Source of the DNA: Nostoc sp. PCC 7524
Lineage (GTDB): Bacteria; Cyanobacteriota; Cyanobacteriia; Cyanobacteriales; Nostocaceae
Reading direction: 5' to 3'
NCBI RefSeq assembly: GCF_000316645.1
Contig: NC_019684.1
Coordinates: 5,616,001-5,680,000, forward strand
Length of the DNA: 64,000 nt
Shown: piece after piece, positions 1 through 15,113 of the stretch
Layout of the letters: every line of letters starts with the position of its first letter
Position numbering within the stretch: the stretch's first letter is position 1
Program-made: the position numbers and the translations under genes
Notes under the pieces: generated by a model
Database searches by the model: none
What the model was told of the DNA's origin: nothing
What the model saw: the letters and a program-made list of their open reading frames with translations, nothing else

Positions 1-603
1 CCATCCCAAATTACTGTTTTCGTTACGATATTCCACCAACACCGCACCATTTTCACGCTCAACCGTCATCTCTAACTTTTGCTGGCGCGAAGTCCGAAAA
101 ACACCAGGATGTACAAAAGCTGTATGAGGAATATCAATAAAATTTTCTGCACAATTGGTGACGTTATTCGCAAACCGATTAATTACCCGCACCGTCTCCC
201 AACCAGCTTCTCCATAGTGAGGCATAGAAAAGGGTGCAAAGTCAACGCTGGGGTTTTCAGCTAACCGCACATATACATATCCGTCTTGTTCCTTAGTCGC
301 GTAAGCTTTGGCTTGACGCTGCTGCGAAGGTTGAAAATCAACACCCTCAGCCGGAACAGCAATTACTTTACCATTGCGATCGTATACCCAACCATGATAG
401 GGACATTGTAAAGCACCTTGACAGACATTTCCTGCCGACAAACGACTACTGCGATGTAAACAGCGATCGCGCAACGCCACAGGTTGTCCATCTTCACCGC
501 GAAATATTGCTAACCACTCGCCTAAAAGCGATCGCGCCAGCACCGTGTTAGATTTTAGCTGCTCACTGAGTGTGACAATATACCAAAAATCTGCAAATTG
601 CAT
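1..603 (-). CDS. Rieske non-heme iron oxygenase, C-terminal part cut by window edge
   Basis: The reading frame opens with ATG at 603 and runs without a stop to base 1, giving 201 residues of N-terminal sequence. A Rieske [2Fe-2S] site is visible (C48-L-H50 and C67-P-Y-H70), followed by the mononuclear iron motif D157-x2-H160-x4-H165. This is the layout of aromatic-ring-hydroxylating dioxygenase alpha subunits and related single-component oxygenases, which use ferredoxin electrons and O2 to hydroxylate, demethylate or desaturate a substrate. The substrate cannot be read from the sequence. It is the first of four Rieske oxygenases on this strand within 9 kb. The catalytic domain beyond the iron ligands lies outside the window. 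Confidence 0.9.
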   Translation of the reverse strand, partial: MQFADFWYIVTLSEQLKSNTVLARSLLGEWLAIFRGEDGQPVALRDRCLHRSSRLSAGNVCQGALQCPYHGWVYDRNGKVIAVPAEGVDFQPSQQRQAKAYATKEQDGYVYVRLAENPSVDFAPFSMPHYGEAGWETVRVINRFANNVTNCAENFIDIPHTAFVHPGVFRTSRQQKLEMTVERENGAVLVEYRNENSNLGW

Positions 604-860
604 AGTAGATGATATTATTGAAAGCCATTTCTTAAATATGACTACATTACTGTATCTATAAAATTCCAAAAGAGCTAATTTACACAGAAACATCAAGCAA
701 AAATCATGTAAATGAAAAATCTCAATCATGCTAATTTAAATTGATACAAATGTTGCTATTACAATGGCGAATTTATATTTATTTAAATAAATATGTTTTC
801 TGATGTGCTTGAGAATATAATTGTATCTGAGTAGTATAGGTTAGGAGCAGAGGTAAAACT

Positions 861-1139
861 ATGACTTTGGAACAAGCAGTTTTAAAAACCTTCCGAGAAT
901 TGCCCACAGATAAACAACAAGAGGTTTTAGATTTTATTCAATTTCTCCAATATAAATTATCAGCTATAAAAACACTTGCTATATCTGATAATCAAGAAAA
1001 TTTAACAGACAATCAAGAGGTTAATGATTTTTGGTCAGCTTTACAAGACTTTAGACAAAGGGTGGATTTAGAAAGTATTGATGATGATACTTTTGAAAAT
1101 TTGCGGGATAGATCACCAGGAAGAGAAGTTAATTTATGA
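861..1139 (+). CDS. antitoxin-like protein (DUF2281/VapB-type)
   Basis: A 92-residue protein opening MTLEQAVLKTFRELPTDKQQ, followed by a second helix ending in a FIQFLQYKL-type segment. This helical N-terminus is typical of the small cyanobacterial antitoxins that precede PIN-domain toxins. A purine-rich ribosome site (aggagcagagg) sits just upstream. The stop overlaps the next start by four bases (ATGA at 1136-1139), the usual coupling of an antitoxin to its toxin. The family assignment is by resemblance; the position in front of a PIN toxin is the stronger support. Confidence 0.75.
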   Translation: MTLEQAVLKTFRELPTDKQQEVLDFIQFLQYKLSAIKTLAISDNQENLTDNQEVNDFWSALQDFRQRVDLESIDDDTFENLRDRSPGREVNL

Positions 1140-1555
1140 GTCTAAAGTATTTGCTAGATACTAACATCTTGTCTGAGTCTAAACGACCTCAACCCAATGA
1201 TAAAGTAATGGGAAAGCTAAGGTTATATAGACAAGAGATAGCCACAGCTACAGTAGTTATCCATGAGATGTTATATGGTTGTTTGCGTCTTCCTATGTCT
1301 AAAAAACGTCAAGATATAGAAGACTATATCAACAATGTGATTTTAGCACAACTTCCTTTATTTGATTATAATCTCCAAGCGGCACAATATCACGCCCAGG
1401 AAAGAGCAAGGTTATCTAAAGTTGGTAGAAAACCTGCTTTTGTTGATGGGCAAATTGCCTCTATTGCAGTTACCAATGATTTGATTTTAGTAACAAATAA
1501 TGTGACAGATTTTCAAGATTTCGAGCTTCTAAAAATAGAAAATTGGTTTTGTTGA
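1136..1555 (+). CDS. vapC: PIN-domain ribonuclease toxin (VapC-type)
   Basis: A 139-residue PIN-domain protein. The acidic Mg2+-binding residues of VapC nucleases are in place: D8 in LLDTNI, E44 in VIHEMLYG, D104 in FVDGQIAS and D125 in the TNNVTDF block. Such toxins cleave tRNA or rRNA and are neutralised by the upstream antitoxin, with which this gene overlaps by four bases. Length and motif spacing are normal, so the toxin appears intact. The pair lies between two oxygenase genes of the opposite strand, which suggests it was inserted in or beside the oxygenase island. Confidence 0.88.
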   Translation: MSLKYLLDTNILSESKRPQPNDKVMGKLRLYRQEIATATVVIHEMLYGCLRLPMSKKRQDIEDYINNVILAQLPLFDYNLQAAQYHAQERARLSKVGRKPAFVDGQIASIAVTNDLILVTNNVTDFQDFELLKIENWFC

Positions 1556-1725
1556 TTTACTAAAATTAAAGTGTTAATAATCAGTGGTGAAAAGAAACAA
1601 TTTTAGGAGATGTTTTTATATTCTAATAGAGATTAAAATTTATAGCAAACAGGGTTTAAAAGTGGCCAGTTGCACCTGGAAACTTAGAAAAAATTACTCC
1701 TCAGTGAATCAGAAGTTTACTTGTA

Positions 1726-2010
1726 TTACAGTGTGCGGATAGTCACATTGTCTGTAATGTCTATTTGACAGGCTAATCGTGCATTTGGATGATTTGGGGC
1801 AAATGTATCTAACATTTCCTGTTCATCAGGTTGAGGAGGAGGAATATCACCAATTACCTCAACCAAACAAGTTCCACAAATACCAGTCCGACAACCAAAT
1901 AAAACAGGTGAATTTTGAATAGTCAAATGCTCAGATAAATTTTGGTGACATTCCAGAACCAAAGATTCATAAACACTACCCGGAAAAGAAATAGTACACA
2001 AATTAGACAT
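1726..2010 (-). CDS. plant-type [2Fe-2S] ferredoxin
   Basis: A 94-residue ferredoxin with the cluster-binding cysteines C40, C45 and C48 (GCRTGICGTC) and C81, the C-x4-C-x2-C...C arrangement of plant/cyanobacterial ferredoxins. It differs clearly from a photosynthetic PetF in the segment after C48, which carries a proline run (IPPPQPDEQEML), as in ferredoxins and reductase domains dedicated to oxygenases. Its position between the first Rieske gene and the diiron oxygenase genes, on the same strand, suggests it is the electron donor for that island. The specific partner is inferred, not shown. Confidence 0.88.
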   Translation of the reverse strand: MSNLCTISFPGSVYESLVLECHQNLSEHLTIQNSPVLFGCRTGICGTCLVEVIGDIPPPQPDEQEMLDTFAPNHPNARLACQIDITDNVTIRTL

Positions 2011-2032
2011 AGTATTTAAGCCAAACTCTTGC

Positions 2033-2112
2033 GTTCTTCTTCGCGCCTTTGTCTTGAAAAGTTCTGATCGGAGGAAACCTCCGCTCAGACTTTTCGCTGC
2101 GCCTTTGCGTGA
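2033..2112 (-). repeat. interspersed repeat with embedded hairpin
   Basis: This stretch contains a GCGCCTTTG-type repeat unit seen elsewhere (3289-3320, 61748-61776, 62197-62224). Inside it is an imperfect palindrome: arms at about 2056-2073 and 2078-2094, one bulge and one mismatch, with an AAA loop. The last codons of the neighbouring diiron oxygenase gene are read from this repeat, and its TGA stop falls inside the hairpin. Confidence 0.7.
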
Positions 2113-3299
2113 GACAAAAACAAACCCTCCAACTCCTCACGACAATACCCTTCAAACCTCCCAAAAGCCCTTTTTTGCATCTCCAAACATCGAGAAATAG
2201 AATTACCCCCCATCAAAGACATCTCCCGATTACGCCGCCAAAGATAATCTAACTTTTCCACATAAACCTTATAAGATGCCATCGCCTCCTGATGAGTTAA
2301 AAAACTTCGATTTAACCCTTCCGACTCCTCCGTAAAACAGCGACGCATCATTTCCTTAGCGTCAGTGTCACCCATCTCAAAAACAGGCGATCGCAACACA
2401 TAATAAATCTTGCTATACAACGCTGGATCATACCAAAAAATCCCGTTAATCGCCGCCGAAAAATGAAAGTGATCACGCTGACATCCCAACAACCCCAAAT
2501 TCGCTACTAATTGCTCAAACGCAGTTGGCGAAGGAAGATAGTTAATCACATCATGAGAAATAATTGTAGAACTATTGAAGTGAAAACTTTCATCTAAAAA
2601 GTGATAATAAGAGATTTTCGCCGGAATTGGTGCAACCTCTGGCTGAGAATGTTTCTGATAGTAATTGCTGAGTTTGTGCTGTACTAATTTTCCGTTTAGT
2701 GTCCGCACTCCCCGGACTGTAAAATACTGACAAGCTAAAAAAGTATTATTTGCAGATATCAACCCGAAGTATTGCAATTGAATTTTTTTCCACCAAGTTT
2801 TCAGAGCGTTAGTATCTGCATAAACCATCGTTTCTGTAAACGGGCCGCGCATGGGATATGTAAAGATGAGTTTACCAAATAAGGCTTGCTCAACTTGTTT
2901 GGCTATGGTGCGGAAAGCGTTAATATGCGCTCTTTCTTGGGAGGATTCTAAGTCTAAGGTATCGCAGATTAAGCGGAAGTCTTCTTGAGCATATAAACCG
3001 GCTGCACTGGTTTGATTAAAATAGATGGTTGCAATCTCGGCGGAGACTATTTGTGAGTAGTAGGCTACCCAGTAAAGATGGTTTAAAATTATACGTTGGT
3101 GCGGGGTGGATTGTTCCCAGAGGGGTGTACCGTAAAGTAGGGAAAATTCTTCTGGATTCCAATATTCGTTTTGACAATCTTCGTAGCGGAAGTTGGCGGC
3201 TGTTTCTTCCATTACAGCCGTGTGATCTTGCTGTTTGTTGCGGGTGTGGTTGATTTGGAGTTTGCGATGGGTGGTTTGGTTCATAGAAGTTTCGCGCAA
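2085..3299 (-). CDS. AurF-like diiron oxygenase
   Basis: Up to 404 residues; a start at codon 6 (MNQTTHRK, base 3284) is more likely, since the first five codons come from an interspersed repeat. The metal-ligand pattern of AurF-type p-aminobenzoate N-oxygenases is recognisable: E88, then E122-R-A-H125 (ExxH), then H233-x3-E237-x2-H240. The spacing E to ExxH (34) and the HxxxExxH signature both match that family. A glutamate corresponding to the remaining AurF ligand is not obvious between residues 190 and 215. AurF enzymes oxidise arylamines to nitro compounds; relatives act on other substrates, so the reaction here is open. The C-terminal ten or so residues are also repeat-encoded. Confidence 0.68.
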   Translation of the reverse strand: MRETSMNQTTHRKLQINHTRNKQQDHTAVMEETAANFRYEDCQNEYWNPEEFSLLYGTPLWEQSTPHQRIILNHLYWVAYYSQIVSAEIATIYFNQTSAAGLYAQEDFRLICDTLDLESSQERAHINAFRTIAKQVEQALFGKLIFTYPMRGPFTETMVYADTNALKTWWKKIQLQYFGLISANNTFLACQYFTVRGVRTLNGKLVQHKLSNYYQKHSQPEVAPIPAKISYYHFLDESFHFNSSTIISHDVINYLPSPTAFEQLVANLGLLGCQRDHFHFSAAINGIFWYDPALYSKIYYVLRSPVFEMGDTDAKEMMRRCFTEESEGLNRSFLTHQEAMASYKVYVEKLDYLWRRNREMSLMGGNSISRCLEMQKRAFGRFEGYCREELEGLFLSHAKAQRKV

Positions 3300-3320
3300 A
3301 GGCGCAAAGGCGCAGAGAGA
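3285..3320 (+). repeat. TTTCGCGCAAAGGCGC interspersed repeat
   Basis: Copy of the GTTTCGCGCAAAGGCGCAAAG repeat family between two diiron-protein genes. It is inverted relative to the copy at 2090-2112, so the AurF-like gene lies between oppositely oriented copies. It also contributes the first codons of the longest reading frame of that gene. Confidence 0.75.
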
Positions 3321-3324
3321 GGGT

Positions 3325-4239
3325 TTATACGCATTGGTGAGGGGGGAGGGGTGTGAATGATCTTTGTGTTTCTAATGTTTGAACTATTACATTTGCGGTG
3401 GTTTTTTGCATGAGCGATCGCAGTATTTGTAATCTTGTAGCACTGTGGGTTTGTGTGTCCAGTTGTTCGAGAATTTGGATTTTTTGCGATCGCGACAGAT
3501 GTCCTTTTACTTGTTCGATGGCTGATAATATGCTTTGTGGGCCGATTTGTATCATGAAGAGAAATTTGGTTAATACTTCGAGGATGGTTGTTTTACTGTC
3601 GGGTGTCATAGGAGTTTGGTTAAATAATGTTGAGCCTGTGCTGTGATGACGGGCTTCTGCGTCCAGAAAACTGGAGAATAGTTTTGCTAAGGCTGGATGC
3701 TGACATGATTTAGCCAAGCGGCGATAATGACTCAAACCCCATCCTTCTAAGACAACCTGAAGCACAAATAACAATACTGTTTTGTCTGCACTTTCCACGA
3801 CTTCTGCTAGTAACCGCAGAAATGGATCGTCAGTGTGAGTTTGTTGTGTTTCTGGTAAAAAATGGCTGATTTGGTTTAAATGGGTGGCTTCATCGGCTGT
3901 AAACATGGCGTAGAGCATTCGCTCTTCTATTGTTTCTGCTAACATCACCATCTTGGCCATGTAGCCAACGCCTGCTTTTTCAATAAAATAGGATTCTGTT
4001 AACAAGCCGCGATTGAGGAGTTGAAGTATAGCTAACTGTTCGTTTTCACTGGCTTGTTGAAAAATTTGAACTTGATGCAGATTAAAAAATGTTGCATCCC
4101 AATAATCGTATTGAGGATGTAAAGAATTCTCGCTTTGATTTGGTAATGCTGCTGTCAGTATGCGCCGCAAACGATTATCAGGATCTATATGTGGTAAGTC
4201 AAGTCCAGCAACTTGATATTTTAAATTTGTATTAATCAT
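3325..4239 (-). CDS. ferritin-like diiron protein, probable oxygenase/oxidase
   Basis: A 304-residue, mostly helical protein. Two half-sites of a ferritin-like four-helix bundle can be seen: E87 with E117-A-T-H120, and E165 with E195-A-R-H198. The equal 30-residue spacing between each single Glu and its ExxH is the classic diiron carboxylate pattern. No similarity to a named enzyme is recognised. It sits directly upstream of, and on the same strand as, the AurF-like gene, and downstream of a Rieske gene (46-base gap), so the three probably form one transcription unit. Function is inferred to be O2-dependent oxidation; a non-enzymatic iron role cannot be excluded. Confidence 0.6.
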   Translation of the reverse strand: MINTNLKYQVAGLDLPHIDPDNRLRRILTAALPNQSENSLHPQYDYWDATFFNLHQVQIFQQASENEQLAILQLLNRGLLTESYFIEKAGVGYMAKMVMLAETIEERMLYAMFTADEATHLNQISHFLPETQQTHTDDPFLRLLAEVVESADKTVLLFVLQVVLEGWGLSHYRRLAKSCQHPALAKLFSSFLDAEARHHSTGSTLFNQTPMTPDSKTTILEVLTKFLFMIQIGPQSILSAIEQVKGHLSRSQKIQILEQLDTQTHSATRLQILRSLMQKTTANVIVQTLETQRSFTPLPPHQCV

Positions 4240-4284
4240 TCTATTGCATTGAAAAGTTAGTTTAATAATGTCTGTCTAGAACCC

Positions 4285-5400
4285 TTACCCTGCAAAAAGA
4301 GGAGAGTTTTGCTCCCCATTCCCTTGTAGGGAAGGGGGTTGGGGGGTTAGGTTTTTATGACTAAATTGATGTTCTACCGTCTCTGTTGCAGAAACAGTTT
4401 CCCAAGTTCCCCAAGTTAAAGCTTGTTGCTGATTAACGTGTTGGATAAATTGCAAAATAGAATGATCAGCTTTGGTGGGAGTCTTCAAATCAAACTTAAT
4501 TGTCTGAAATACCTGTGTATCACCTTTGGCGAAGTAATTACCAACTTGCTGAGTTAACCACAGCAAGCCACGATTGACAACCCATCCCCACCATCCCCGA
4601 CGCTTGGGAGTGACTAAGATTGTTTGTCCTTCGGTTTTGCCACCTTCAATCATTCGCAGTGCAAATATGATGTAAAAGTGCAGAAAATCTGGCCCCAGTG
4701 TGACAGTCCCAGTGCTGCCATACCAATAACACATACTATAAGTAACTTCGTTGCGGTATAGAGGGCGAATCAGGCGAATCAACCAGGAATCATCTCCGCC
4801 TCGTGTGGTGTTGCTGAATGTAATAGCGTTGGCGTTGAGGTTTTGACAATCAAATACAATCTCTAAGGGTAAATTGTGTACTGTATTAAAGTGATGAGCA
4901 TCGATCGCATTAATCAGTAAGACATTGGGATGGCAGTTTTTCACAAACCGAGTTCCCAACAGATAATCACACTCTACCTCTTCCAGTTCTGGGACGAAAG
5001 GTAACGCGGTAGGTTGTTCTTCTCCTACCCACACCCAAATTAAACCGTACTTTTCGGTTATCTGCCAAGTTTTGATACAGACTGGCAAGGGTTTTCCCTG
5101 AGAAGGTACATCTACACAAATTCCGCGATCGCTATACTTCCAATTATGGAAAAAGCAGCGAATCCCATCACCTTCTACTTTACCCTCCGCTAAATGCGCC
5201 CCCATGTGAGGACAATAAGCATCTACCGCCACCACTTGACCACTAACTCCGCGATAAATTGCGAGGTTTCTCCCCAGTAGTGTGACAGCTTTTACCTTGC
5301 CAACTTTTAATTGTTTGGATGGTAATGTCCAATACCATCCGGCTATGAATTGGGTAGAATTGTTAAAGTTTGCGTGTTGGCTGGTAGAAGACATAAGCAA
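4285..5400 (-). CDS. Rieske non-heme iron oxygenase
   Basis: A 371-residue single-chain Rieske oxygenase. Rieske cluster ligands are C63-P-H65 and C82-F-F-H85; the catalytic iron motif is D167-x2-H170-x4-H175 (IDAHHFNTVH). The protein begins with an AGWYWTLPSKQL segment similar to the start of the second such enzyme at 6542-7585, so the two look like paralogues. The last 20 or so residues (NLTPQPPSLQGNGEQ and what follows) are encoded by an interspersed repeat, present again at 21058-21101, and are therefore probably not an ancestral part of the enzyme. M3 (base 5394) is an alternative start. Substrate unknown. Confidence 0.88.
   Translation of the reverse strand: MLMSSTSQHANFNNSTQFIAGWYWTLPSKQLKVGKVKAVTLLGRNLAIYRGVSGQVVAVDAYCPHMGAHLAEGKVEGDGIRCFFHNWKYSDRGICVDVPSQGKPLPVCIKTWQITEKYGLIWVWVGEEQPTALPFVPELEEVECDYLLGTRFVKNCHPNVLLINAIDAHHFNTVHNLPLEIVFDCQNLNANAITFSNTTRGGDDSWLIRLIRPLYRNEVTYSMCYWYGSTGTVTLGPDFLHFYIIFALRMIEGGKTEGQTILVTPKRRGWWGWVVNRGLLWLTQQVGNYFAKGDTQVFQTIKFDLKTPTKADHSILQFIQHVNQQQALTWGTWETVSATETVEHQFSHKNLTPQPPSLQGNGEQNSPLFAG
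4311..4353 (+). repeat. GGAAGGGGGTTGGGGGGTTAGG repeat copy
   Basis: Nearly identical to 21058-21101: a CCCTTCCC/GGGAAGGGGG hairpin followed by a G-rich tail. Here it overlaps the 3' end of a Rieske oxygenase gene and supplies its C-terminal codons. Confidence 0.8.
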
Positions 5401-5626
5401 TGGGGACTGGGGATTGGAGACTGTTGTTTAGTTAATTAAAGGCGTTGCTGATTGAGAATATGAATTTTTCTCACGCATACCGCCTCTGGCGTTCCCGCAG
5501 GGTAGGCGCAAAGACGCAAAGGAACAAAGAATAAAAAACTCTTTCTTCCGCTACACCCCTATGGGAAATTCAAAATTCAAAATTAACATCCTCTTACTTT
5601 TGACTTTTGCCTTTTGACTTTTGATT

Positions 5627-6373
5627 TTATTTCGCCCCTACACCCCTATCATGGACAAATTCTAACAACGATTCTGACTGCCACATCCGTTGTCCAGCGT
5701 GGGTGAGATTTTCATAACTGATTTCAGTTAAACAAACCAATTCATCGCCTAGACGATAGCCTGGGTTTGTTTCTTCAAAGAATTTGATATGGGGATTCGT
5801 CTGTCGTCCTGTGGGGATTTCAATTAAACCCTCACGCAGAATTTGAGGATTGGGGAAGCGAACAATACCAGTTGCTTCTTGATAACACTCACCGTAGTAT
5901 TCCTGTGCCAGATTTGTTATAAGATTTGCGATATCAGAGGGTGTAGCGGTATCGTAGCGGGGATAGAACTCTTGCCAAAAGGTGGGGAGAAAGCGGTAGG
6001 TACGAAAACCGGAGCAAATTAGCAGCCAGTAAAGTTTATTATCCGCATAGTATTGACGCAGAAAATTTACAGCAGCAATCCAGGTGCGTGGTAGGGCTGT
6101 ACTCGACCAAGCACTGGGATCAACAATCGTATCACCGGAATAGACTACACTAATGCGTTCTCCAGCAAAATTTGTCTGACGTAACATCAGGGTAGAAAAC
6201 CCTTTGAGGGTGTTTGTGATTTCTTCTCTCAACAGCAACACCCAGTTTTTGCGTTCTAAATCAGCCTGGAATCCTTCCCATGTGACACCTTGAAAGTGAT
6301 TGTTTAGTAACGCATACATGGCGATGCGATCGCTTGCTTGCAGCTTTTGAACAGGGACTAGCCAATTCTTCAT
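5627..6373 (-). CDS. hypothetical protein, acyltransferase-like
   Basis: A 248-residue soluble protein with no recognised family. The central part (LKGFSTLMLRQ ... ISVVYSGDTIVDP) resembles the core strands of GNAT-fold acyltransferases, followed by an aromatic-rich region (LYWLLICSGFRTYRFLPTFW). The resemblance is weak and by eye only. It lies between two Rieske oxygenase genes on the same strand, so it is likely to act in the same pathway, for instance by acylating the oxygenated product or an intermediate. No signal peptide or membrane segment is seen. Confidence 0.5.
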   Translation of the reverse strand: MKNWLVPVQKLQASDRIAMYALLNNHFQGVTWEGFQADLERKNWVLLLREEITNTLKGFSTLMLRQTNFAGERISVVYSGDTIVDPSAWSSTALPRTWIAAVNFLRQYYADNKLYWLLICSGFRTYRFLPTFWQEFYPRYDTATPSDIANLITNLAQEYYGECYQEATGIVRFPNPQILREGLIEIPTGRQTNPHIKFFEETNPGYRLGDELVCLTEISYENLTHAGQRMWQSESLLEFVHDRGVGAK

Positions 6374-6541
6374 TATTCGGCAATTACCTAAACTCGGTTT
6401 GTGGGATGTTTATAATTAACACGTTATCGAGCCAAACGGTGAAATTACGGTGTCATGTGACAGATGCGAGAATGGATACATCAAAGAGCATAAGCATTCT
6501 CACATAGCGCATCTAAAAATTAACTTTTATTAACTTTATTT

Positions 6542-7585
6542 TTAACTTTCTACCTTGTTTACAGTAAAATATTTTGAATTATTAATTTCTCCCAAATTTC
6601 TTGACCATTTAGATGGTTCTAGCTGATTCACATACTCCATATACTGCGCCAATGGTTGATCAATTCTTAGCAGTAACTTGGGATGAAATTGAATATTATC
6701 GTAAATTTTACCGTCCTCATCTCTGAGCATATAGTAAGCTAAACGAGTACAAAAAAGTAAAAACTGACTAATTAGATATCCTCCTATTCCTCGCCGTTTT
6801 TCTGCCACATAAATCGGTTGAATCCGTGTTCTTCCAGGTGCAATGGGAGTGTAAGCATATATCATGTGTAATGGCGGAAAGAGTTTGACATTTTTCATCA
6901 TTGTTAACAAGCCGATACAACCATGAGCATATCGCATGGAATATTCATAAGTAGCACCCAGAAATTTTTGACCTAATCTTTCTCTCCAAGTTGAACTAGG
7001 AAAATTTCCCTTCATTGTAAAGTCAATTTGTGTACCTAATTGATTGCGATGTAGGGACAAATCCATTTTGATATCTAAACGATGAATTGTTCTTAAATGT
7101 TGCGCGTCAATCCCATTCATCATACAAATATGATGATGGCAACTTCTTTCAAATGGAGTGTCAGCTTGGGTGACAATTTCTTTACCCAACAATTCATCAA
7201 AATCAGCTACATTTTCCGGTGCTTCAGTATCAGGATAAATCCAAATAAAGCCATACTTTTCAGATATTGCATAAGCTTGTACTTTAGCTTTAGCCGGAAT
7301 CTCTATTTGACAGGGAATATTTTGACACATTCCTGTCTCATCAAATGCCCAATGATGAAATGCACAGCGAATCCAATTCCCGTCAACATGACCAATACCT
7401 AAATCTGTTCCCAGATGTGGACAGTAAGCATCTAAAGCCCGTACTCGACCATCTTCACCCCGAAAAATCACAATTTTTTGTCCACAAATTTCTATAGATT
7501 TAGCTGTGGTGTGGCGTAATTCACGGCTAGGACAGGCAATATACCAACCCTTAGCAACAATATTCCAGTTATTAAAGATTTGCAT
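6542..7585 (-). CDS. Rieske non-heme iron oxygenase
   Basis: A 347-residue Rieske oxygenase with cluster ligands C55-P-H57 and C74-A-F-H77 and the catalytic motif D160-x2-H163-x4-H168 (IDAQHLRTIH). It resembles the protein at 4285-5400 over the N-terminal half (GWYIACPSREL, DAYCPHLGTDLG). The start at 7585 overlaps the end of the upstream Mpo1-like gene (7572-7991) by 14 bases, so the two are almost certainly cotranscribed and translationally coupled. Base composition is a little richer in A+T than the first Rieske gene. Substrate not deducible. Confidence 0.88.
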   Translation of the reverse strand: MQIFNNWNIVAKGWYIACPSRELRHTTAKSIEICGQKIVIFRGEDGRVRALDAYCPHLGTDLGIGHVDGNWIRCAFHHWAFDETGMCQNIPCQIEIPAKAKVQAYAISEKYGFIWIYPDTEAPENVADFDELLGKEIVTQADTPFERSCHHHICMMNGIDAQHLRTIHRLDIKMDLSLHRNQLGTQIDFTMKGNFPSSTWRERLGQKFLGATYEYSMRYAHGCIGLLTMMKNVKLFPPLHMIYAYTPIAPGRTRIQPIYVAEKRRGIGGYLISQFLLFCTRLAYYMLRDEDGKIYDNIQFHPKLLLRIDQPLAQYMEYVNQLEPSKWSRNLGEINNSKYFTVNKVES

Positions 7586-7991
7586 AATTCTTAGACTGAT
7601 AATTGTTTAATATCTCTTGTCTTTGGTGAATATCATCTTGATATTTCCCCATTAAAACCCTGATGAGCATTTTACCTAAACAGTAAGAAGCTCGCCAAGA
7701 AAATACAGCATCTTGTAAATCTATGTGGCTACGCTCAAATAATAAATGTCCAGTTAATCCAATTAACTGAGTTAAAGGTAATCCCAAGAGCAACCAAAAG
7801 TTATGTAATTTCCAAACAGCAAACAGTAAAGCATAAAAGAAGAATATCCCAACAATATGGAGAGAAATATTAATAGGATGTTGATGTTTAAGAACAAAAA
7901 TATCCCAATAATCTGTAAAAGGATGCTCCAAAATTTGATGATTAATTCGATTTCTCAACTTTTGTCGGGAATCAGAATTAGTTTTATCCAT
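7572..7991 (-). CDS. Mpo1-like (DUF962) membrane protein
   Basis: A 139-residue protein with a short polar N-terminus and about three hydrophobic segments. The family signature is visible: a His-Pro-x-Asn-x3-His block (HPINISLHIVG, residues 37-47) and GHLLFERSH near residue 87-95. The yeast relative Mpo1 is an Fe(II)-dependent dioxygenase that shortens 2-hydroxy fatty acids by one carbon; other bacterial members are uncharacterised. Overlap with the following Rieske gene suggests that an oxygenated acyl or long-chain substrate is handled by this cluster. The link to fatty-acid alpha-oxidation is inference. Confidence 0.65.
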   Translation of the reverse strand: MDKTNSDSRQKLRNRINHQILEHPFTDYWDIFVLKHQHPINISLHIVGIFFFYALLFAVWKLHNFWLLLGLPLTQLIGLTGHLLFERSHIDLQDAVFSWRASYCLGKMLIRVLMGKYQDDIHQRQEILNNYQSKNYANL

Positions 7992-8062
7992 AAAAAACTA
8001 TTTTAAAAACTGCTAATCAATAATATTTACACCATACTGATATCAAGTAAGCTATTTTCTGA

Positions 8063-8095
8063 CCCCATACATATTAATAATTGTATGGGGTTTTT
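8063..8095 (+). terminator. hairpin plus T-run, terminator-like on the + strand
   Basis: Perfect 8-bp stem CCCCATAC/GTATGGGG (8063-8070 and 8083-8090) followed by TTTTT. The T-run is on the + strand although the flanking genes are on the minus strand, where the hairpin is followed by no T-run. It may block antisense transcription into the Rieske gene at 8124 or be a mobile repeat. Confidence 0.55.
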
Positions 8096-8123
8096 AGCTT
8101 ACACAGCTAAATCATAATCTTCA

Positions 8124-9092
8124 TCACCACTCATGGTATAGTTTCTCAACATAAAATAAGATTTCCTCTTTTGGCAGGCGAATCTTTGGTTTTTGTGGTG
8201 GGTACAAACTTGCAACTGCTCCAGAATCTTGTTCAACCACTTTAGCTATAGATGATAACAGCGATCGCTCCAGCGCATTCCTGAATCCGGGGATGTGGAA
8301 AAGGGGACTGTGCAAATTTCCATAACAAAGCACAAAGGTTCGCGTTTGATGCTCACTTTCCGGGTAAAGGATAAAAAATTGTAAAATTTCGCCGAGGGGG
8401 AGTTGGGCTTTAAATAAAGTGGTGGAAGGAAAAGAATACTCCAACTCGTTTTTGATTTGTTGGGGTAGAGTCAGCAATGATGGGTTTTTCAGAATCTCGC
8501 TGAAAGAATTCCTTTCTCTGAGGAAAGTTTGCACAACTCTAGCCTCAAATCCGTTCGGCTCAAATGATTCAACTGGGTTCTCTCGAATTCTAAAAATCTC
8601 TCGATGAACGCCATTTTGATGATTAAAGTCATAGTTGATTTTGATGGAATTCAGAAATGCAGCCGGGATACTGGTGCAACCCACAACCCCTAGAAAACGC
8701 AGTCCTTGCGATCGCTCAGAAATGAGATCAGGAATCGGTAAACGTGGTTCATTCCCTCCATAAGTCCAGATGAAATCGCCTTGAACCACTAGATTTAACT
8801 TGTTGGCGATAGGTTCTCCTTTAGCTTTACCATCTTTTACAAGTCTTCCTTCTCCATCAAATTCCAGCGCATGAAAAGGGCATTGAATCGAATTGCTAGC
8901 TTCACAAATCCAGCCATTTGAGAGCGGAGCTTGCATATGAGGACAGACATTTTCCAATGCAGAAATCTCCCCTTCACGGTTTTGCCAAAGTACATAATCC
9001 TGCCCATTGAGGGTAAATTTGTAAGGTTTGTTGACTCCTAACATTGAGCGATGAGCGATTAGCCAAGGTGCGCCAGGAAGGATAGGCTTCAT
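8124..9092 (-). CDS. Rieske non-heme iron oxygenase
   Basis: A 322-residue Rieske protein, shorter and more divergent than the other three. Ligands: C50-P-H52 and C71-P-F-H74 for the [2Fe-2S] cluster; D155-x2-H158-x4-H163 (DFNHQNGVH) for the mononuclear iron. It lies 68 bases downstream of a Crp/Fnr regulator gene on the same strand and is separated from the rest of the oxygenase island by 132 bases containing a hairpin. It may therefore be an independently regulated unit. The start with MKPILPGAPWLIAHRSML is the only good one. Substrate unknown. Confidence 0.87.
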   Translation of the reverse strand: MKPILPGAPWLIAHRSMLGVNKPYKFTLNGQDYVLWQNREGEISALENVCPHMQAPLSNGWICEASNSIQCPFHALEFDGEGRLVKDGKAKGEPIANKLNLVVQGDFIWTYGGNEPRLPIPDLISERSQGLRFLGVVGCTSIPAAFLNSIKINYDFNHQNGVHREIFRIRENPVESFEPNGFEARVVQTFLRERNSFSEILKNPSLLTLPQQIKNELEYSFPSTTLFKAQLPLGEILQFFILYPESEHQTRTFVLCYGNLHSPLFHIPGFRNALERSLLSSIAKVVEQDSGAVASLYPPQKPKIRLPKEEILFYVEKLYHEW

Positions 9093-9160
9093 TCAGATAC
9101 TCTCCAATACTGTTTGATTTTTAACCTACCTGTTGACTTTGCTTATTGCATTCACCTTGG

Positions 9161-9742
9161 TTAAGAAAAGGTTTTTTCGTAGACTCTTCGCTTTAAGCGA
9201 CTGAGAGATTGCGGTTCAATTCCTAAATAAGATGCCAGGTAATATTGGGGAATACGCTGCAATAGTTCCGGCTCATTTTGTAGCAGATTGATATATCTTT
9301 CTTCAGGAGTATCTAAAAACAGAGATAAAACTTTGTCTCGCAGTAGAAACGCCAAATCCTCCGCAACAAGCCTTAAAAATCTTTGCCCTTGGGGAGTAGT
9401 TTCAAAAAATTGCATTATCTTATGGTCAAAGATAATCACTTCTGAATCTTCAACAGCTTGAACTGTAAAGCGAGTAGGTTGACGCTTTTGAAAACTCTCA
9501 TAATCTCCCAATGTCTGTCGTTCAACGTGAAAGAAAAGCGTGTACTCTTTTGCTTCTTTTAATACAAAAGTCCTGAGACAACCTTTAAGAGTAAAACCCA
9601 CAAATTCACAGATTTCACCTTGTTGAAATAAGAACTCCCCTCTGCATAACTTCCTAGACTTTAGAAGAGATTTCAGAAGTACAAAATCAATTTTGAAATC
9701 TGGAAAAAGCTGCTGGATGAATGCAAAAAACGACTCATACAT
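9161..9742 (-). CDS. Crp/Fnr-family transcription regulator
   Basis: A 193-residue protein with a cyclic-nucleotide-binding-like beta barrel (residues about 20-115; GEFLFQQGEICEFVGFTLKGC) and a C-terminal helix-turn-helix (IPQYYLASYLGIEPQSLSRL, residues about 164-183). No Fnr cysteine cluster is present, so an oxygen-sensing [4Fe-4S] role is unlikely. The barrel is of the short type found in small Crp-like regulators with unknown ligands. Placement directly upstream of, and in the same direction as, the Rieske gene at 8124-9092 suggests it controls that gene, perhaps with itself. Confidence 0.85.
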   Translation of the reverse strand: MYESFFAFIQQLFPDFKIDFVLLKSLLKSRKLCRGEFLFQQGEICEFVGFTLKGCLRTFVLKEAKEYTLFFHVERQTLGDYESFQKRQPTRFTVQAVEDSEVIIFDHKIMQFFETTPQGQRFLRLVAEDLAFLLRDKVLSLFLDTPEERYINLLQNEPELLQRIPQYYLASYLGIEPQSLSRLKRRVYEKTFS

Positions 9743-9860: not shown

Positions 9861-10634
9861 TTATAACTCCGATAGTTCTGCAAAAACGGTTTCTCTCCAG
9901 AAATTAATACGATTCTCTCGTGTTACTGGTTTACTTATGAGTTTACGCCAAGTACCATTTGCTGCACCACTGGGATGAGGAAATACAAGGTGTTTGTGTT
10001 GTAATTTTATACTGCTAACGCCTATCCTTGCTTCTTGCCCCCATGTAATTACCGCTATTGGCTTGAAAATTTCTAACTCCGCCTTCAGCACTTGAATGAA
10101 ACGAGTATGATCTTGTTTTGTCAGAGGAAGACGGCGATCGCAATCCTCCTTACTGACAAATACTTTAAAAATATCGGTGAGGTAGACTCTGTATCCTTCG
10201 TCTAGCAAGATTTTAATCAAATCGAAATATCGCCTTGTAGTATGCAACTTTTCCCGGCAATTTTTCAAGTGTAAAGCGTAGGGCGTTGCAATAGAAATTT
10301 CTTCTACTCTTGTATCACTGTGTCGTAAAGGGTCTTGTCCAATGATAGCCACTGTTTTCTTGTTTAAAATATTGTTGTCTTTTTCCAGGATGCTGGGAAT
10401 ATCTACCCCAACAACTAAAGCTTCCTCGTAGCGTTTTTGAAAGCTTGAATTGTGAGAGTGAAAAATATTTCTGATTAGAGTATGTTCGGGATAACCTTCC
10501 AATTCAAATTCTTGCTGCATTACCTCATAGAGAGATTGTAGTTGGCATTGGGAAATATCAAAAACTTTAGATAACTCTTGATGCAAAGCTGCAAATTCTT
10601 TGGCTTTAAACTGGGAAAACAAGTAATTTGGCAT
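9861..10634 (-). CDS. uracil-DNA glycosylase superfamily protein
   Basis: A 257-residue protein. Residues 95-105 (VAIIGQDPLRH) match the water-activating GQDP motif of the uracil-DNA glycosylase fold, and FPHPSGAAN near residue 225 matches the C-terminal HPS loop. The N-terminal 90 residues are not part of the usual fold. These proteins excise damaged bases or, in divergent members, act on other nucleobase-like substrates. It is not a canonical family 1 or family 4 enzyme: no FeS cysteine set is visible. Divergent UDG-like proteins also occur in antiphage islands, but nothing here proves that role. Confidence 0.68.
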   Translation of the reverse strand: MPNYLFSQFKAKEFAALHQELSKVFDISQCQLQSLYEVMQQEFELEGYPEHTLIRNIFHSHNSSFQKRYEEALVVGVDIPSILEKDNNILNKKTVAIIGQDPLRHSDTRVEEISIATPYALHLKNCREKLHTTRRYFDLIKILLDEGYRVYLTDIFKVFVSKEDCDRRLPLTKQDHTRFIQVLKAELEIFKPIAVITWGQEARIGVSSIKLQHKHLVFPHPSGAANGTWRKLISKPVTRENRINFWRETVFAELSEL

Positions 10635-11423: not shown

Positions 11424-13130
11424 TTAACATGGAGATAAAACAGTTCCCAATTTTTCACATCCCAAGCGATCGCTCACTTTTCCTTGATCAACCACCTGTA
11501 CCCCATTAATATACACTGTGGTGACAATCTCATCTGAACCACGCTTCACCATCCGGGGTTCACCATCCAAAACCGGATCTAATATTTCCATTTGGGGGCT
11601 GATGGGCTGATTTAAAGCACTGGGATCAAGTAAAACGATATCGGCTTTCGCGCCAACTTTCAAAACTCCTGTATCTAGGCGAAACCATTGGGCGGGTTCT
11701 CCCGTAACGCGATAAATCGCAGCCTCCGGTGACATAAACTTGGTAGTAACTGCTTGTTTAAGTAGAGACAAAGCTCCATCATAGTAGCCGAGATTACGGA
11801 CGTGTGCGCCAGCATCCGTAAATCCTGGTAAAATATAGGGATGCTGCATTAATGCTAAACGGGGTTGTAAGCGGTCATTTGCCCCTGTCGCTACCCAGCG
11901 TAAATCTGTATCGTATTCCTGTAAAGCTTCGATAAAGAAATCTATGGGTTCTTGTTGGTGTTGACGGGCAATTTCCGCAAAACTCAAGCCCTCCCAACTC
12001 GCTTGGGGAGACTGTACAACTTCCATCAAATCTAAGTCACGATGAAATGATTTCCGCCTTTTATTCAGCCATTCTTGACGAAATTGGCGGCGAAAACCTG
12101 GAGATTGCCATAATTTTTGTCTTTCCTGTCGGGAATCACAGCCATTGAGTTGTGCGCCTGTGGAAAATTCTTCAAATAAGGGTGTGACACAACCATCCGA
12201 GTAAATGGTGAAGGGTTCAGTCAAGGTTTGAAAGCGTACATTCCCACCCAGTAAATGATTCCAGATGTTCAGAATCGGGGAAAATACTTTCCAGAGGTTG
12301 CGATCATGGACGGCATCTAAAGCAGAGAGGACAGTTAACCTGAGTGGACGTTTACCTATGCCTACACCCATCCGCAGAATATCGAGAAAGGAAGCTAGGC
12401 GTTGTAAATTGGGGGTGACTTGAAAAACGCGATCGCGCCTTCTACACAAATCCGCCAACATCGCATATTCTTTAAACTTGGCGTGTTGTGAGGGAATTGT
12501 GTAACCCCGCCATTCTCCACTCATACGATGCCAAGGAAACATATCAATAGAAACCCCTACAAAGCCTGCATCTAAAGCATCGGCGGCAATGCGCTGCATA
12601 ACATTTAGCTCGAATTTGCTAGGCTGAACCTTTAAACTGCGTTCTAATCCCATCACCTCAGCGCGTAAGGCACTATGTCCAAGCAAAGGTGCAATATTCG
12701 CCCCCAACGGTAACTGCTGCAAATGCTGTAAATACTCGGCTGGAGTCTGCCAAGAAACCGATGTTTGCAACCATTTGGCAATTAACCGATGGGAAAGCGT
12801 CTCCACCCTTTGAAAAATATCAGCTAGCATTTGGGGTTCACCGATTGCGATCGACAAACTACAATTGCCAATAACAACGCTAGTCACACCATGACGCACA
12901 GATTCACCCAGTCCCGGCGCAATTTCTACTTCTAAATCATAGTGCGTATGAATATCAATGAATCCTGGTGTCACCCACAACCCAGAAGCATCAACCACCT
13001 CACGCGCTGGGATATTTAATGATGGTGCAATGGTGACAATCTGTCCATTTTGAATCCCGACATCTCCCCGCACAGGTACAGATCCTAAACCATCAAAAAT
13101 TAACCCATTTTGAATTAATAAATCTAACAT
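11424..13130 (-). CDS. D-aminoacylase-like amidohydrolase
   Basis: A 568-residue amidohydrolase-superfamily protein. The N-terminus has the small beta-sandwich start (LLIQNGLIFDGLGSVPVRGD) followed by the metal-binding PGFIDIHTHYD motif (about residues 55-65), and near the C-terminus a TDAGAHVRN motif and KADIVLLDP. This is the architecture of N-acyl-D-amino-acid deacylases and related amidases, zinc hydrolases that release D-amino acids from acylated forms. Substrate specificity is not readable. It stands between a TA pair of the other strand and the DUF4276 gene, with no clear operon partner. Length is normal for the family. Confidence 0.85.
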   Translation of the reverse strand: MLDLLIQNGLIFDGLGSVPVRGDVGIQNGQIVTIAPSLNIPAREVVDASGLWVTPGFIDIHTHYDLEVEIAPGLGESVRHGVTSVVIGNCSLSIAIGEPQMLADIFQRVETLSHRLIAKWLQTSVSWQTPAEYLQHLQQLPLGANIAPLLGHSALRAEVMGLERSLKVQPSKFELNVMQRIAADALDAGFVGVSIDMFPWHRMSGEWRGYTIPSQHAKFKEYAMLADLCRRRDRVFQVTPNLQRLASFLDILRMGVGIGKRPLRLTVLSALDAVHDRNLWKVFSPILNIWNHLLGGNVRFQTLTEPFTIYSDGCVTPLFEEFSTGAQLNGCDSRQERQKLWQSPGFRRQFRQEWLNKRRKSFHRDLDLMEVVQSPQASWEGLSFAEIARQHQQEPIDFFIEALQEYDTDLRWVATGANDRLQPRLALMQHPYILPGFTDAGAHVRNLGYYDGALSLLKQAVTTKFMSPEAAIYRVTGEPAQWFRLDTGVLKVGAKADIVLLDPSALNQPISPQMEILDPVLDGEPRMVKRGSDEIVTTVYINGVQVVDQGKVSDRLGCEKLGTVLSPC

Positions 13131-13156: not shown

Positions 13157-13831
13157 CTACTGTCCACTAAACAGCCTAAGTTTATCTCGAAAATAGCAGA
13201 AACTTGGTGATTGATTGTTGTCAATATCCATCAAAGGAGATATTCTTTCTGCCCAAGTTGCCTTTTCTTTTCCGATTACTTGATAACCAAGCTTAGACAA
13301 CTTGTGACAACCACCAGAATATAGTGCATCAGCTAACTTTTCCCATGTACCACAAATCTCATCATTTGTGTAAGAATTGAGAACGGCTTCTTTCGCACTC
13401 GGATAAGCATTTTTCACGGCTGCTAAATCACCCAAGTACCATGCTTCTCCTTCCTCAATAGCGATACAAAATTGTGTTTTTGGCTGAGGATGACAAGAAT
13501 TTAGTATCTCAAGTAATTCTTTCCGAAAACTACTAAGGCATCGGTCATCAAGGTCACAAATGACAATCAAAACAGCCTGATAATCAGAGGGATAACTGGC
13601 AAATGTATTACCATAGCCTCTAATAAGTCTTGGCAGTTGGTCGAGTAAAATTCGTTTTTGGGGATCAGAGTTAGATTTTAAATTTTTAGGAATATGTCCT
13701 ATTCCTTTGTAAGCATGAATATTAAATGTATGTTGTTCGGTATTTAGAATTTTTGGGACAAGAATGTCAAGAGCCTTTTTACTTGAAATATCCTCAACTA
13801 GGATCTCAAAGTGCATATACCTACCTTGCAT
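13157..13831 (-). CDS. DUF4276-like, TOPRIM-like protein
   Basis: Up to 224 residues; M6 (base 13816) is an equally good start. Acidic residues fit a TOPRIM-type active site: E13 at the end of the first strand (ILVED), D93-x-D95 (VICDLDD), and a later acidic cluster (AIEEGEAW, residues 124-131). The family is known mainly from its pairing with RecF/OLD-like ATPases. Here it overlaps the upstream ATPase gene by 11 bases, which strongly suggests a two-component complex. By analogy with ATPase/TOPRIM defence systems such as PARIS and OLD nucleases, it could be a nuclease effector; this is inference. Confidence 0.7.
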   Translation of the reverse strand: MQGRYMHFEILVEDISSKKALDILVPKILNTEQHTFNIHAYKGIGHIPKNLKSNSDPQKRILLDQLPRLIRGYGNTFASYPSDYQAVLIVICDLDDRCLSSFRKELLEILNSCHPQPKTQFCIAIEEGEAWYLGDLAAVKNAYPSAKEAVLNSYTNDEICGTWEKLADALYSGGCHKLSKLGYQVIGKEKATWAERISPLMDIDNNQSPSFCYFRDKLRLFSGQ

Positions 13832-15113
13832 CTAAATAGTCACTGTACCAAAGTCCACCAAGAGGTAAGCCTTCAGAAACAAGGTTATTGATCAGAGGAT
13901 CTTCACTAGCCCGCCTAATTTTTGCAAATCCATCTTCACCCTTTTCCAGAACCCAAACTTCTTCAGGTTCAAGGGCATCTACAAAATATGGTTGATGCGT
14001 TGTGACAAATATTTGTGAACCACCTTTTTGACTTGTGGCGTGTTCTCGAAACTCGCGCGCTAGGGTTTCTAGAAGTTTATGATAAAGTCCATTTTCTGGC
14101 TCTTCAATGCACAAAAAAGGTGGTGGTGATGGGTCTTCTAAAAGCAGGAGATAGGCGAATACTTTAAGTGTACCATCTGACATTTGTTGAGCATAAAACG
14201 GGTCTTGAAACCCCTTGTCATTGAAACGAAGCAGGAGTCTGCCGTCTGGGCTTTTTTCAGTGCTAATCTTATTAATACCTGGAATTTTACTAGATATCTT
14301 GTCTAGTATGGATTTAAACTTTTGAGGATGTTCTCTCTCCATAAACTGAACTACATTACCCAGATTATCTCCATGAATATTCAGATGTTTTTGTGGACCA
14401 GCTAGAGGTAAACTTCTTGCCGCATCAGGCGTAAAATAGCTTAAATACCATCCTTCAATAAATCTACGAAACATAGAAATTCTTGGGTGTTGTTTCAGTG
14501 AACCCAAAGTGGCGATTCCCAGTTTTCGCTTATCGTCAAGTTCGACTATCTCCGTTTCTTTACTTTCTTCTTCTGCTTCACCTCTTTGAATTTTTTCTAT
14601 TAAATTTGACAAATTTAAATTCCCTTCCTCCTCTTCAAATTGTTTACCGCCTTGTTCCCCTTTCCACGCGACTCCTCTACCTTCATTGAGAATTAGGAAA
14701 GAGAAAGGTTTTCCCTTATCTTGTCCCTTTCTTCGTTGTCTAAGTCTTTCCCGTTTGACATAAGGTCTTCCATATGTGTCAATATCTATGGCTAACTCAT
14801 ACGTAATCGGTCTAGCATTACGATGCTCTTTATAATAGATATCAAACTCGATACTTCCTTCTCGTCCTTGTGAACGAATCCTCTCAAAACCACCACGACC
14901 ACGAGAATCACACGCTTCCTCTACACCATTTTTTAAGCAGTCTGCAAGAAAGCCAAAAGTGTCGAAAATCGTACTTTTTCCTACTCCATTCTTACCGATG
15001 ACTGCCGTCATTGGTGCTAGTGGCTTGGCATTCTGTGTATTCCATAACTTCCCTAAAGTTATATCGCGAAGAACTCTGTAATTTCTAACTCTAAATCCTT
15101 CTACTTTCGACAT
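13821..15113 (-). CDS. RecF/OLD-like AAA ATPase
   Basis: A 430-residue ABC-type ATPase. Walker A is GKNGVGKST (about residues 40-48), the signature-like motif is MSDGTLK (311-317), Walker B is FLCIEEPENG (333-342) and the H-loop is TTHQPYF (371-377). Between them is a long insertion with an acidic, coiled-coil-like segment (residues 155-195). This arrangement is typical of AAA_21/OLD-type ATPases that sense DNA ends or phage activity. It is followed by an overlapping TOPRIM-like gene, so the pair probably forms a sensor-effector unit. No transmembrane segment is seen. Confidence 0.88.
   Translation of the reverse strand: MSKVEGFRVRNYRVLRDITLGKLWNTQNAKPLAPMTAVIGKNGVGKSTIFDTFGFLADCLKNGVEEACDSRGRGGFERIRSQGREGSIEFDIYYKEHRNARPITYELAIDIDTYGRPYVKRERLRQRRKGQDKGKPFSFLILNEGRGVAWKGEQGGKQFEEEEGNLNLSNLIEKIQRGEAEEESKETEIVELDDKRKLGIATLGSLKQHPRISMFRRFIEGWYLSYFTPDAARSLPLAGPQKHLNIHGDNLGNVVQFMEREHPQKFKSILDKISSKIPGINKISTEKSPDGRLLLRFNDKGFQDPFYAQQMSDGTLKVFAYLLLLEDPSPPPFLCIEEPENGLYHKLLETLAREFREHATSQKGGSQIFVTTHQPYFVDALEPEEVWVLEKGEDGFAKIRRASEDPLINNLVSEGLPLGGLWYSDYLDAR

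Follow-up and report, generated by a model that had tools for sequence, protein, structure and literature searches.

Gene clusters that encode a homologue of CylC together with several Rieske proteins have already been described. In the text of a survey by Eusebio et al. (2021, PMC8406957), 36 of 95 classed CylC clusters are orphan 'Rieske-containing' clusters, in which two to four Rieske proteins accompany a single CylC homologue and, in most cases, a member of the sterol desaturase family. They were assigned no product in 2021, and no substrate activation protein was reported near them; their CylC genes were treated as homologues of dimetal halogenases that may act on intermediates of fatty acid metabolism. 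We analyzed a 64,000-nucleotide stretch of Nostoc sp. PCC 7524 (the window; G000:C2 5616001-5680000 of a 6.72-Mb genome), whose left end carries an oxygenase-rich gene cluster that continues beyond the edge. The cluster type is already known, because it matches those Rieske-containing CylC clusters as the survey's text presents them: RieskeB, RieskeC and RieskeD belong to the conserved set with RieskeA adjacent, the fatty acid (FA) hydroxylase is of the sterol desaturase family PF04116, and a single CylC homologue was found among the matches listed. The genes almost certainly make up a single orphan pathway of biosynthesis, built from a core of nine genes plus an accessory module, because they are linked, are co-inherited when unlinked, and keep their catalytic ligands intact.

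The core order that recurs across cyanobacteria is GNAT-RieskeC-ferritin-like-AurF/CylC-like-ferredoxin-RieskeD-FA hydroxylase-hexapeptide acyltransferase-GH3. In the window these are minus-strand genes for a GNAT-fold acyltransferase (5627-6373), the RieskeC oxygenase (4285-5400, start TTG at 5400; PF00355), a ferritin-like diiron protein (3325-4239), the AurF/CylC-like diiron enzyme (2085-3299, start TTG at 3299 with an ATG at 3281), a plant-type 2Fe-2S ferredoxin (1726-2010; PF00111) and the N-terminal part of RieskeD (1-729), whose whole open reading frame (ORF; G000:C2 5615581-5616729, 382 amino acids) is cut by the window edge. The last three lie left of the window on the same strand as the end of RieskeD: the FA hydroxylase (G000:C2 5614824-5615576; PF04116, E 5e-25), the hexapeptide acyltransferase (G000:C2 5614219-5614827) and, beyond a transposase and other genes, the GH3 enzyme (G000:C2 5609056-5610591). 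Read from right to left, the minus-strand order within the window is Crp, RieskeA, Mpo1-like, RieskeB, GNAT, RieskeC, ferritin-like, AurF/CylC-like, ferredoxin, RieskeD. From the Mpo1-like gene to ferredoxin, the called ORFs are spaced by -14 to 226 bases. RieskeB (6542-7585, minus strand) is nearly core, its position within the cluster varying among loci. The accessory genes, also on the minus strand, are those for the Mpo1-like membrane protein (7572-7991; PF06127), which overlaps RieskeB by 14 bases, an amidohydrolase (Amidohydro_3, 11424-13130; PF07969) and a membrane GT2 glycosyltransferase with a QxxRW motif (15227-16519). The window genome has 17 Rieske matches, four of them inside the first 9.7 kb of the window.

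Linkage was assessed in two sets of loci, which share genomes and are not independent. The first comprises 60 mapped loci with the ferritin-like gene (59 of the 74 order-wide matches, the window's own not among the 59, plus one genus match). Family clustering over these loci, in which the Rieske families merge, recovered the AurF-like gene in 50, GNAT in 44, ferredoxin in 43, FA hydroxylase in 40, hexapeptide acyltransferase in 39, GH3 in 37, Mpo1 in 21, amidohydrolase in 20 and GT2 in 14; eight (L080 and L093-L099) held no other core gene. L093-L099 carry distant ferritin-like relatives (32-44% identity) without the rest of the pathway. The second set, the named loci, are the best 80 of 180 AurF-like relatives, and 55 of these span at least 19 kb (long named loci). 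The ferritin-like gene was present in 54 of the 55, RieskeC in 52, ferredoxin in 51, GNAT, RieskeD and FA hydroxylase in 49 each, RieskeB in 48, hexapeptide acyltransferase in 46, GH3 in 43, Mpo1 in 23, amidohydrolase in 19 and GT2 in 7. Core genes and RieskeB lay on the same strand in all but one or two instances of each. RieskeC is undercounted here, because divergent copies (L190, L199) fall below the identity threshold; the RieskeC-like ORF of L199 (7840-8814) appears by eye to be without the usual Rieske CPH, perhaps the mark of a lost cluster.

RieskeA (8124-9092) and the Crp regulator (9161-9742), both on the minus strand, were rejected as members. Neither occurred in any of the 55 long named loci, and among mapped loci the window genome and G005 alone have them beside the set. 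Within the genus a 97% orthologue of RieskeA was found only in G005, while a 54-57% paralogue lies elsewhere in 10 of 13 genomes, the window genome included, in carriers and non-carriers of the set alike.

The AurF-like clade extends to another class of the phylum (family f48, in a 386-genome phylum sample). Carriers in that class are G396, G407 and G423. In G396 the nine core genes and RieskeB share a single stretch that uses both strands (L208; 29-55% identity, GNAT lowest); a second locus of the class (L209) retains the run from AurF-like to GH3 and a third (L210) the run from AurF-like to hexapeptide acyltransferase. Sequences from this class branch first within the AurF-like clade in a 58-sequence, midpoint-rooted tree, and the set is therefore old or moved early. 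Such other classes are not known to carry out oxygenic photosynthesis.

Co-inheritance holds also where the genes are dispersed. Of 388 genomes sampled from the order, 61 have an AurF-like gene of at least 60% identity (among the matches listed) and 72 a ferritin-like match, including all 61; the 11 further genomes have mostly distant or short ferritin-like matches. Six partner genes (GH3, RieskeD, hexapeptide acyltransferase, RieskeB, amidohydrolase and GT2) were searched for across 75 chosen whole genomes, 23 carriers and 52 non-carriers. Orthologues of GH3 (at least 47%, long) and of RieskeD (at least 62%) were each present in 23/23 carriers versus 0/52 non-carriers, and of the hexapeptide acyltransferase (at least 49%) in 23/23 versus 1/52, the exception being G041. 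RieskeB orthologues (at least 65%) were in 19/23 carriers versus 0/52 non-carriers, where the best match was 38%; amidohydrolase orthologues (at least 65%) in 12/23, one of them broken, versus 0/52; and GT2 orthologues in 11/23 (10 with at least 70% identity and one with 50%, next to the amidohydrolase) versus 0/52. Some GT2 match at E 1e-40 was found in 71 of the 75 genomes, mostly a 43-50% paralogue. In G047 and G298 the AurF-like, GH3, RieskeD and hexapeptide acyltransferase genes are all present, separated by distances of about 190 kb to more than 1 Mb, and G088 has them on separate contigs. Within the window's genus the ferritin-like gene occurs in only 4 of 13 genomes, so that the pathway is seemingly gained or lost as a whole. 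The joint occurrence of both diiron genes in 61 of the 388 genomes (among the matches listed), in a pathway with five to seven enzymes that probably depend on oxygen or iron, points to a useful product.

An earlier note on this DNA had proposed a tailoring pathway for an undescribed metabolite, listing four Rieske enzymes, two diiron proteins, a ferredoxin, an acyltransferase, an Mpo1-like protein and a Crp regulator, all of which are present. Linkage and co-inheritance uphold the idea of one pathway, of a cluster type that was, however, already described in the text of PMC8406957. As for the listed genes being one set, the 55 long named loci bear this out for the core, make Mpo1 accessory, and remove RieskeA and Crp. 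The note would have given way had neighborhood searches shown the genes scattered; instead the set is linked in most mapped loci and co-inherited where it is dispersed.

Distances between sequences divide the set further. The core distance matrices, with ferredoxin omitted, correlated pairwise at 0.83-0.94. RieskeB, amidohydrolase and GT2 correlated with one another at 0.81-0.85 (RieskeB with the two accessory genes at 0.81-0.84), and amidohydrolase and GT2 with the core at 0.47-0.74, from only 18 amidohydrolase and 13 GT2 rows. RieskeB correlated with the core, ferredoxin included, at 0.71-0.86; since its distances follow both groups, we place it between core and accessory module. In L159 and L212, RieskeB, amidohydrolase and GT2 form a block in the orientation opposite to the adjoining GH3. 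On the strength of the correlations and this block, we describe the set as a core pathway with a decorating module.

Rieske oxygenases are marked by CxH-CxxH and NxxDxxHxxxxH motifs with a distal Asp, and ferritin-like diiron proteins by the ligand set E...ExxH...E...ExxH. Rieske and mononuclear-iron ligands were complete in 36/36 RieskeB, 52/52 RieskeC and 42/42 RieskeD sequences. The ferritin-like protein of the window has E82, E117xxH120, E165 and E195xxH198; in 56 sequences E82 is kept in 55, E117 in 56, H120 in 56, E165 in 53, E195 in 55 and H198 in 56. Ferritin_2 was matched at E<=0.01 by 27 of 34 ferritin-like relatives, with Pfam scores under the cut-off. A structure model of the 5627-6373 protein has the GNAT fold. 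The GH3 nucleotide motif T106 S107 S109 K114, as defined in PMC12493201, is intact in 37/37. For the AurF-like, ferritin-like and GNAT proteins, a sequence search of the PDB yielded no usable match; low E-values to SAKe designs came from stretches of about 27-36 residues, none of them passing alone.

The ferredoxin keeps its four Cys in 44/44 sequences. Among the 80 named loci it directly follows the AurF/CylC-like gene in 32, follows with RieskeB in between in 27, and is otherwise arranged in nine; 12 of the 80 stretches are without ferredoxin. In four loci of another cluster type (L103-L106) a 43-45% identical ferredoxin directly follows a CylC relative. In one of these (L103), a PfaD-like gene lies beside the CylC relative. 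By gene order, that of L103-L106 included, the ferredoxin is best tied to the diiron enzyme, and it is a probable electron donor to the AurF/CylC-like enzyme; it may serve the Rieske enzymes too, as the earlier note suggested.

The earlier note had also supposed that scaffold genes may lie beyond the left edge. What lies there is the end of RieskeD, the FA hydroxylase, the acyltransferase and GH3. The 16 kb to the left (L009) was read as an ORF list, and the next 15 kb (L010) and the window were scanned for long frames only. No frame of polyketide synthase (PKS) or nonribosomal peptide synthetase size occurs in these 31 kb or in the window, where the longest is 1212 codons; frames of at least 600 codons number two in L009 (662 and 653), none in L010 and three in the window (1212, 755 and 704). 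L009 holds core genes, a transposase, toxin-antitoxin genes and unrelated-looking genes, and a nearby scaffold synthase was rejected. A primary lipid or acid is a more probable substrate than the product of a scaffold synthase.

GH3 provides a first concrete biochemical handle, a predicted ATP-dependent formation of an acyl amide. The family is acyl-activating and was found in 43 of the 55 long named loci, contrary to the statement in the text of PMC8406957 that no substrate activation protein is near such clusters. A close parallel is the OlsH/OlsI ornithine-lipid pathway of planctomycetes (PMC12493201), which likewise combines a bacterial GH3 with a second acyl transfer step; the essential Ser of the nucleotide motif is S115 in OlsH and, by motif, S107 here. 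Unlike that pathway, the present one has hexapeptide and GNAT acyltransferases in place of the alpha/beta-hydrolase OlsI, and five or six oxygen-activating enzymes; its GH3 also scores far under the OlsH cut-off. We propose that GH3 would activate a carboxylic, probably fatty, acid with ATP and join it to an amine or amino acid, and that the GNAT and hexapeptide enzymes would attach further acyl groups. Oxidation of the chain or head group would fall to the FA hydroxylase, RieskeC, RieskeD, and the ferritin-like and AurF/CylC-like enzymes, and at least the AurF/CylC-like enzyme would draw its electrons from the ferredoxin. The product may be decorated or trimmed in some lineages by RieskeB, the glycosyltransferase and the amidohydrolase. 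From these predicted activities, a highly oxygenated acyl-amide (aminolipid-like) membrane or signaling lipid is a plausible product, though we would put it slightly below an even chance. The best explanation as a whole, one pathway to an oxygenated acyl-amide lipid, appears to us evenly balanced between right and wrong.

Hints of lipid and amide chemistry come from the intact GH3 nucleotide motif and from NCBIfam, where at E 0.001 the only matches were OlsH, hit by GH3, and OlsE, hit by the FA hydroxylase. Several observations weigh against this proposal. Both matches score well below their cut-offs: GH3 reached 28.1 bits against 620 for OlsH (NF052613), and the FA hydroxylase 67.1 bits against 475 for OlsE (NF052566). 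Being so far under the cut-offs, the matches point to family chemistry and not to substrate. Ferredoxin correlates less with the core (0.62-0.77), and the distance correlations stand without a housekeeping control. The named loci overlap the whole-genome set, so their counts are not independent. Twelve of the 55 long named loci have no GH3 in their stretch, yet it was found in 23/23 carriers searched whole. Two non-carriers, G026 and G286, have distant relatives of GH3 (42%, partial and split; 38%) and of RieskeD (38% and 35%), and a third, G028, has a GH3-like stretch of 68 residues at 56%, lying in a short frame that may be a remnant. Because of these, the GH3 and RieskeD families are not confined to carriers.

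The strongest competing explanation is halogenation, in which the AurF/CylC-like enzyme would chlorinate a free fatty acid or a derivative of one; the chlorine would be kept in the product or serve cryptically to prepare bond formation. CylC homology favors it, as does the proposal made in the text of PMC8406957. CylC-family halogenases have nine active-site residues, including QExxH and HxxDExxH, stated to be conserved in all 241 homologues considered; changing E252 of NocO (equivalent to AurF E196) to Ala abolished chlorination and kept iron (PMC12101540). The window protein shares eight of the nine with CylC and NocO (E88, Q121, E122, H125, H233, D236, E237 and H240), and these eight are invariant in an alignment of 135 unique sequences (at least 330 amino acids; 159 before removal of duplicates). 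Unlike the halogenases, it has Gln for the essential Glu. The ninth position is Gln in 112/112 sequences of the window's clade versus Glu in 23/23 other CylC relatives, taken from 20 stretches chosen among the matches listed; their Glu precedes the His of HxxDExxH by 27 residues, a spacing as in NocO and AurF. The clade separates from the 23 relatives with 100/100 support in a tree of 58 of the 135 unique sequences, all 23 falling outside it; the published Rieske/PriA tree's own sequences lay outside this comparison. Identity to the CylC relatives is about 28-42% over aligned parts, and the window genome has one AurF/CylC match among those listed. Like AurF, the p-aminobenzoate N-oxygenase, the window enzyme has the ferritin-like diiron motif layout; unlike AurF, it has Gln for the metal ligand E196 and, as in CylC (PMC12101540), Gln for D135, and it falls under the Pfam cut-off for the AurF family (PF11583). 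No carrier protein or acyl-AMP ligase was recognized beside it, whereas one CylC relative (L111) adjoins ORFs that by eye resemble acyl carrier protein and PKS genes.

Because Gln replaces a Glu essential for chlorination in the CylC homologue NocO, halogenase function is doubtful. The change does not prove its loss: Gln differs from the Ala of the NocO mutant and can still form a hydrogen bond, and the six proposed metal ligands are intact. We regard halogenation as a possible, rather doubtful, alternative, and the Gln/Glu split makes halogenation by these 'halogenases' directly testable in one enzyme. A joint reading, tentative and in our view unlikely to hold in every part, is that the commonest class of 'CylC halogenase homologue' would be a separate subfamily of non-halogenase diiron oxygenases in an unrecognized acyl-amide lipid pathway. 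The Glu-to-Gln change at the presumptive chloride-site position would mark this subfamily, whose partners would be a membrane hydroxylase, a second diiron enzyme and three Rieske enzymes, and the pathway would span cyanobacteria and another class of the phylum.

An isoprenoid substrate (hopanoid, sterol-like, carotenoid or quinone), oxidized in several steps on ring and side chain, is unlikely. The FA_hydroxylase superfamily includes sterol and carotenoid enzymes. The best NCBIfam match of all four Rieske proteins is 4beta-methylsterol monooxygenase, and the best PDB match of RieskeB is 3-ketosteroid 9alpha-hydroxylase (E 2e-20). The monooxygenase scores, however, are 47-80 bits against a cut-off of 600, and the matches span mainly the Rieske half and not the substrate-binding half, with RieskeA (22-267) and in part RieskeD as exceptions. 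GH3, GNAT and hexapeptide acyltransferases would be unexpected in ring oxidation, and no cyclase or prenyltransferase was recognized among the recurrent families of the 60 loci, only part of which are annotated.

A degradative pathway, stripping an environmental aromatic or lipid compound, we hold to be very unlikely. Rieske enzymes and amidohydrolases are common in catabolism, an ABC transporter family is found near 9 of the 60 loci, and a sulphate-permease-family gene lies inside the cluster in several. Against this, the core holds three acyl-joining enzymes of biosynthetic type; the ABC family is also at two pathway-free loci (L094, L095), and only in a minority of loci is the cluster broken by the permease, which makes both unlikely members. 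Coincidental adjacency of unrelated oxygenases in this strain, which the local character of RieskeA and Crp might suggest, is for the core refuted by the linkage and co-inheritance counts and practically out of the question.

No product for this cluster was found in the literature searched, supplements excepted. The text of PMC8406957, its supplements aside, does not mention GH3, the accessory glycosyltransferase, the amidohydrolase or the Glu-to-Gln change. As far as our search reached, the unlinked co-inheritance, the presence of all ten genes in another class and the Glu/Gln split are new; so is the fuller membership, in which GH3 with two acyltransferases suggests an acyl-amide product.

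Loci of a Synechocystis-like genus (L090-L092) have a GNAT-RieskeC-ferritin-like-AurF-like block after an ORF, which in L090 is a fatty acid desaturase (PF00487). The dispersed-gene relatives in this genus suggest that a genetically tractable host exists. By gene order, sll0263-sll0266 of Synechocystis sp. PCC 6803 may be the orthologues, with sll0266 the putative AurF-like one; its values under iron deprivation would fit an iron enzyme. These are given as -3.05, -2.99, -1.37, -0.58 and -1.23 in a table of PMC3516471, and we take them as log2 changes. The Synechocystis version of the Rieske-containing cluster, with PriA and a diguanylate cyclase/phosphodiesterase in the text of PMC8406957, resembles L090, which has GGDEF/EAL and PriA domains, and by gene order L091 and L092.

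G041, the one non-carrier with a hexapeptide orthologue, groups it with GNAT and ferritin-like genes beside an HlyD/FtsX/ABC exporter set. At L088 (8908-15770) a reduced set of only these three genes is divergent from such an exporter set. Judged by gene content, the three may be a minimal unit with an exported product.

Other genes interrupt the cluster. In the window a plus-strand pair for an antitoxin-like (DUF2281) and a PIN-domain protein (861-1555) separates ferredoxin from RieskeD, a gap filled by other genes in many other loci. A candidate anti-phage pair of HEC-01 type (DUF4276 and an AAA ATPase, 13157-15113; PADLOC E 1e-100 and 3e-200) splits the amidohydrolase from the GT2 glycosyltransferase. 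The gene at 9861-10634, rejected as a member, had no NCBIfam or PADLOC match and is present in few locus maps. Near the accessory glycosyltransferase, a SnoaL/DUF4440-like small protein was noted by Pfam (L055 2415-3092), its family occurring in 11 of the 60 loci. An alpha/beta hydrolase gene (Pfam; L045 10572-11321, similar in L053, L054 and L064) lies on the opposite strand between the ferritin-like and AurF-like genes; the family is in 4 of the 60 loci, with ORFs of similar length in several named loci, and OlsI of the planctomycete ornithine lipid pathway is likewise an alpha/beta hydrolase. The sulphate-permease-family gene stands between GNAT and RieskeC in L045 (6435-8141), and ORFs like it, in length by eye, were seen in L054, L132, L134, L137, L143 and L145.

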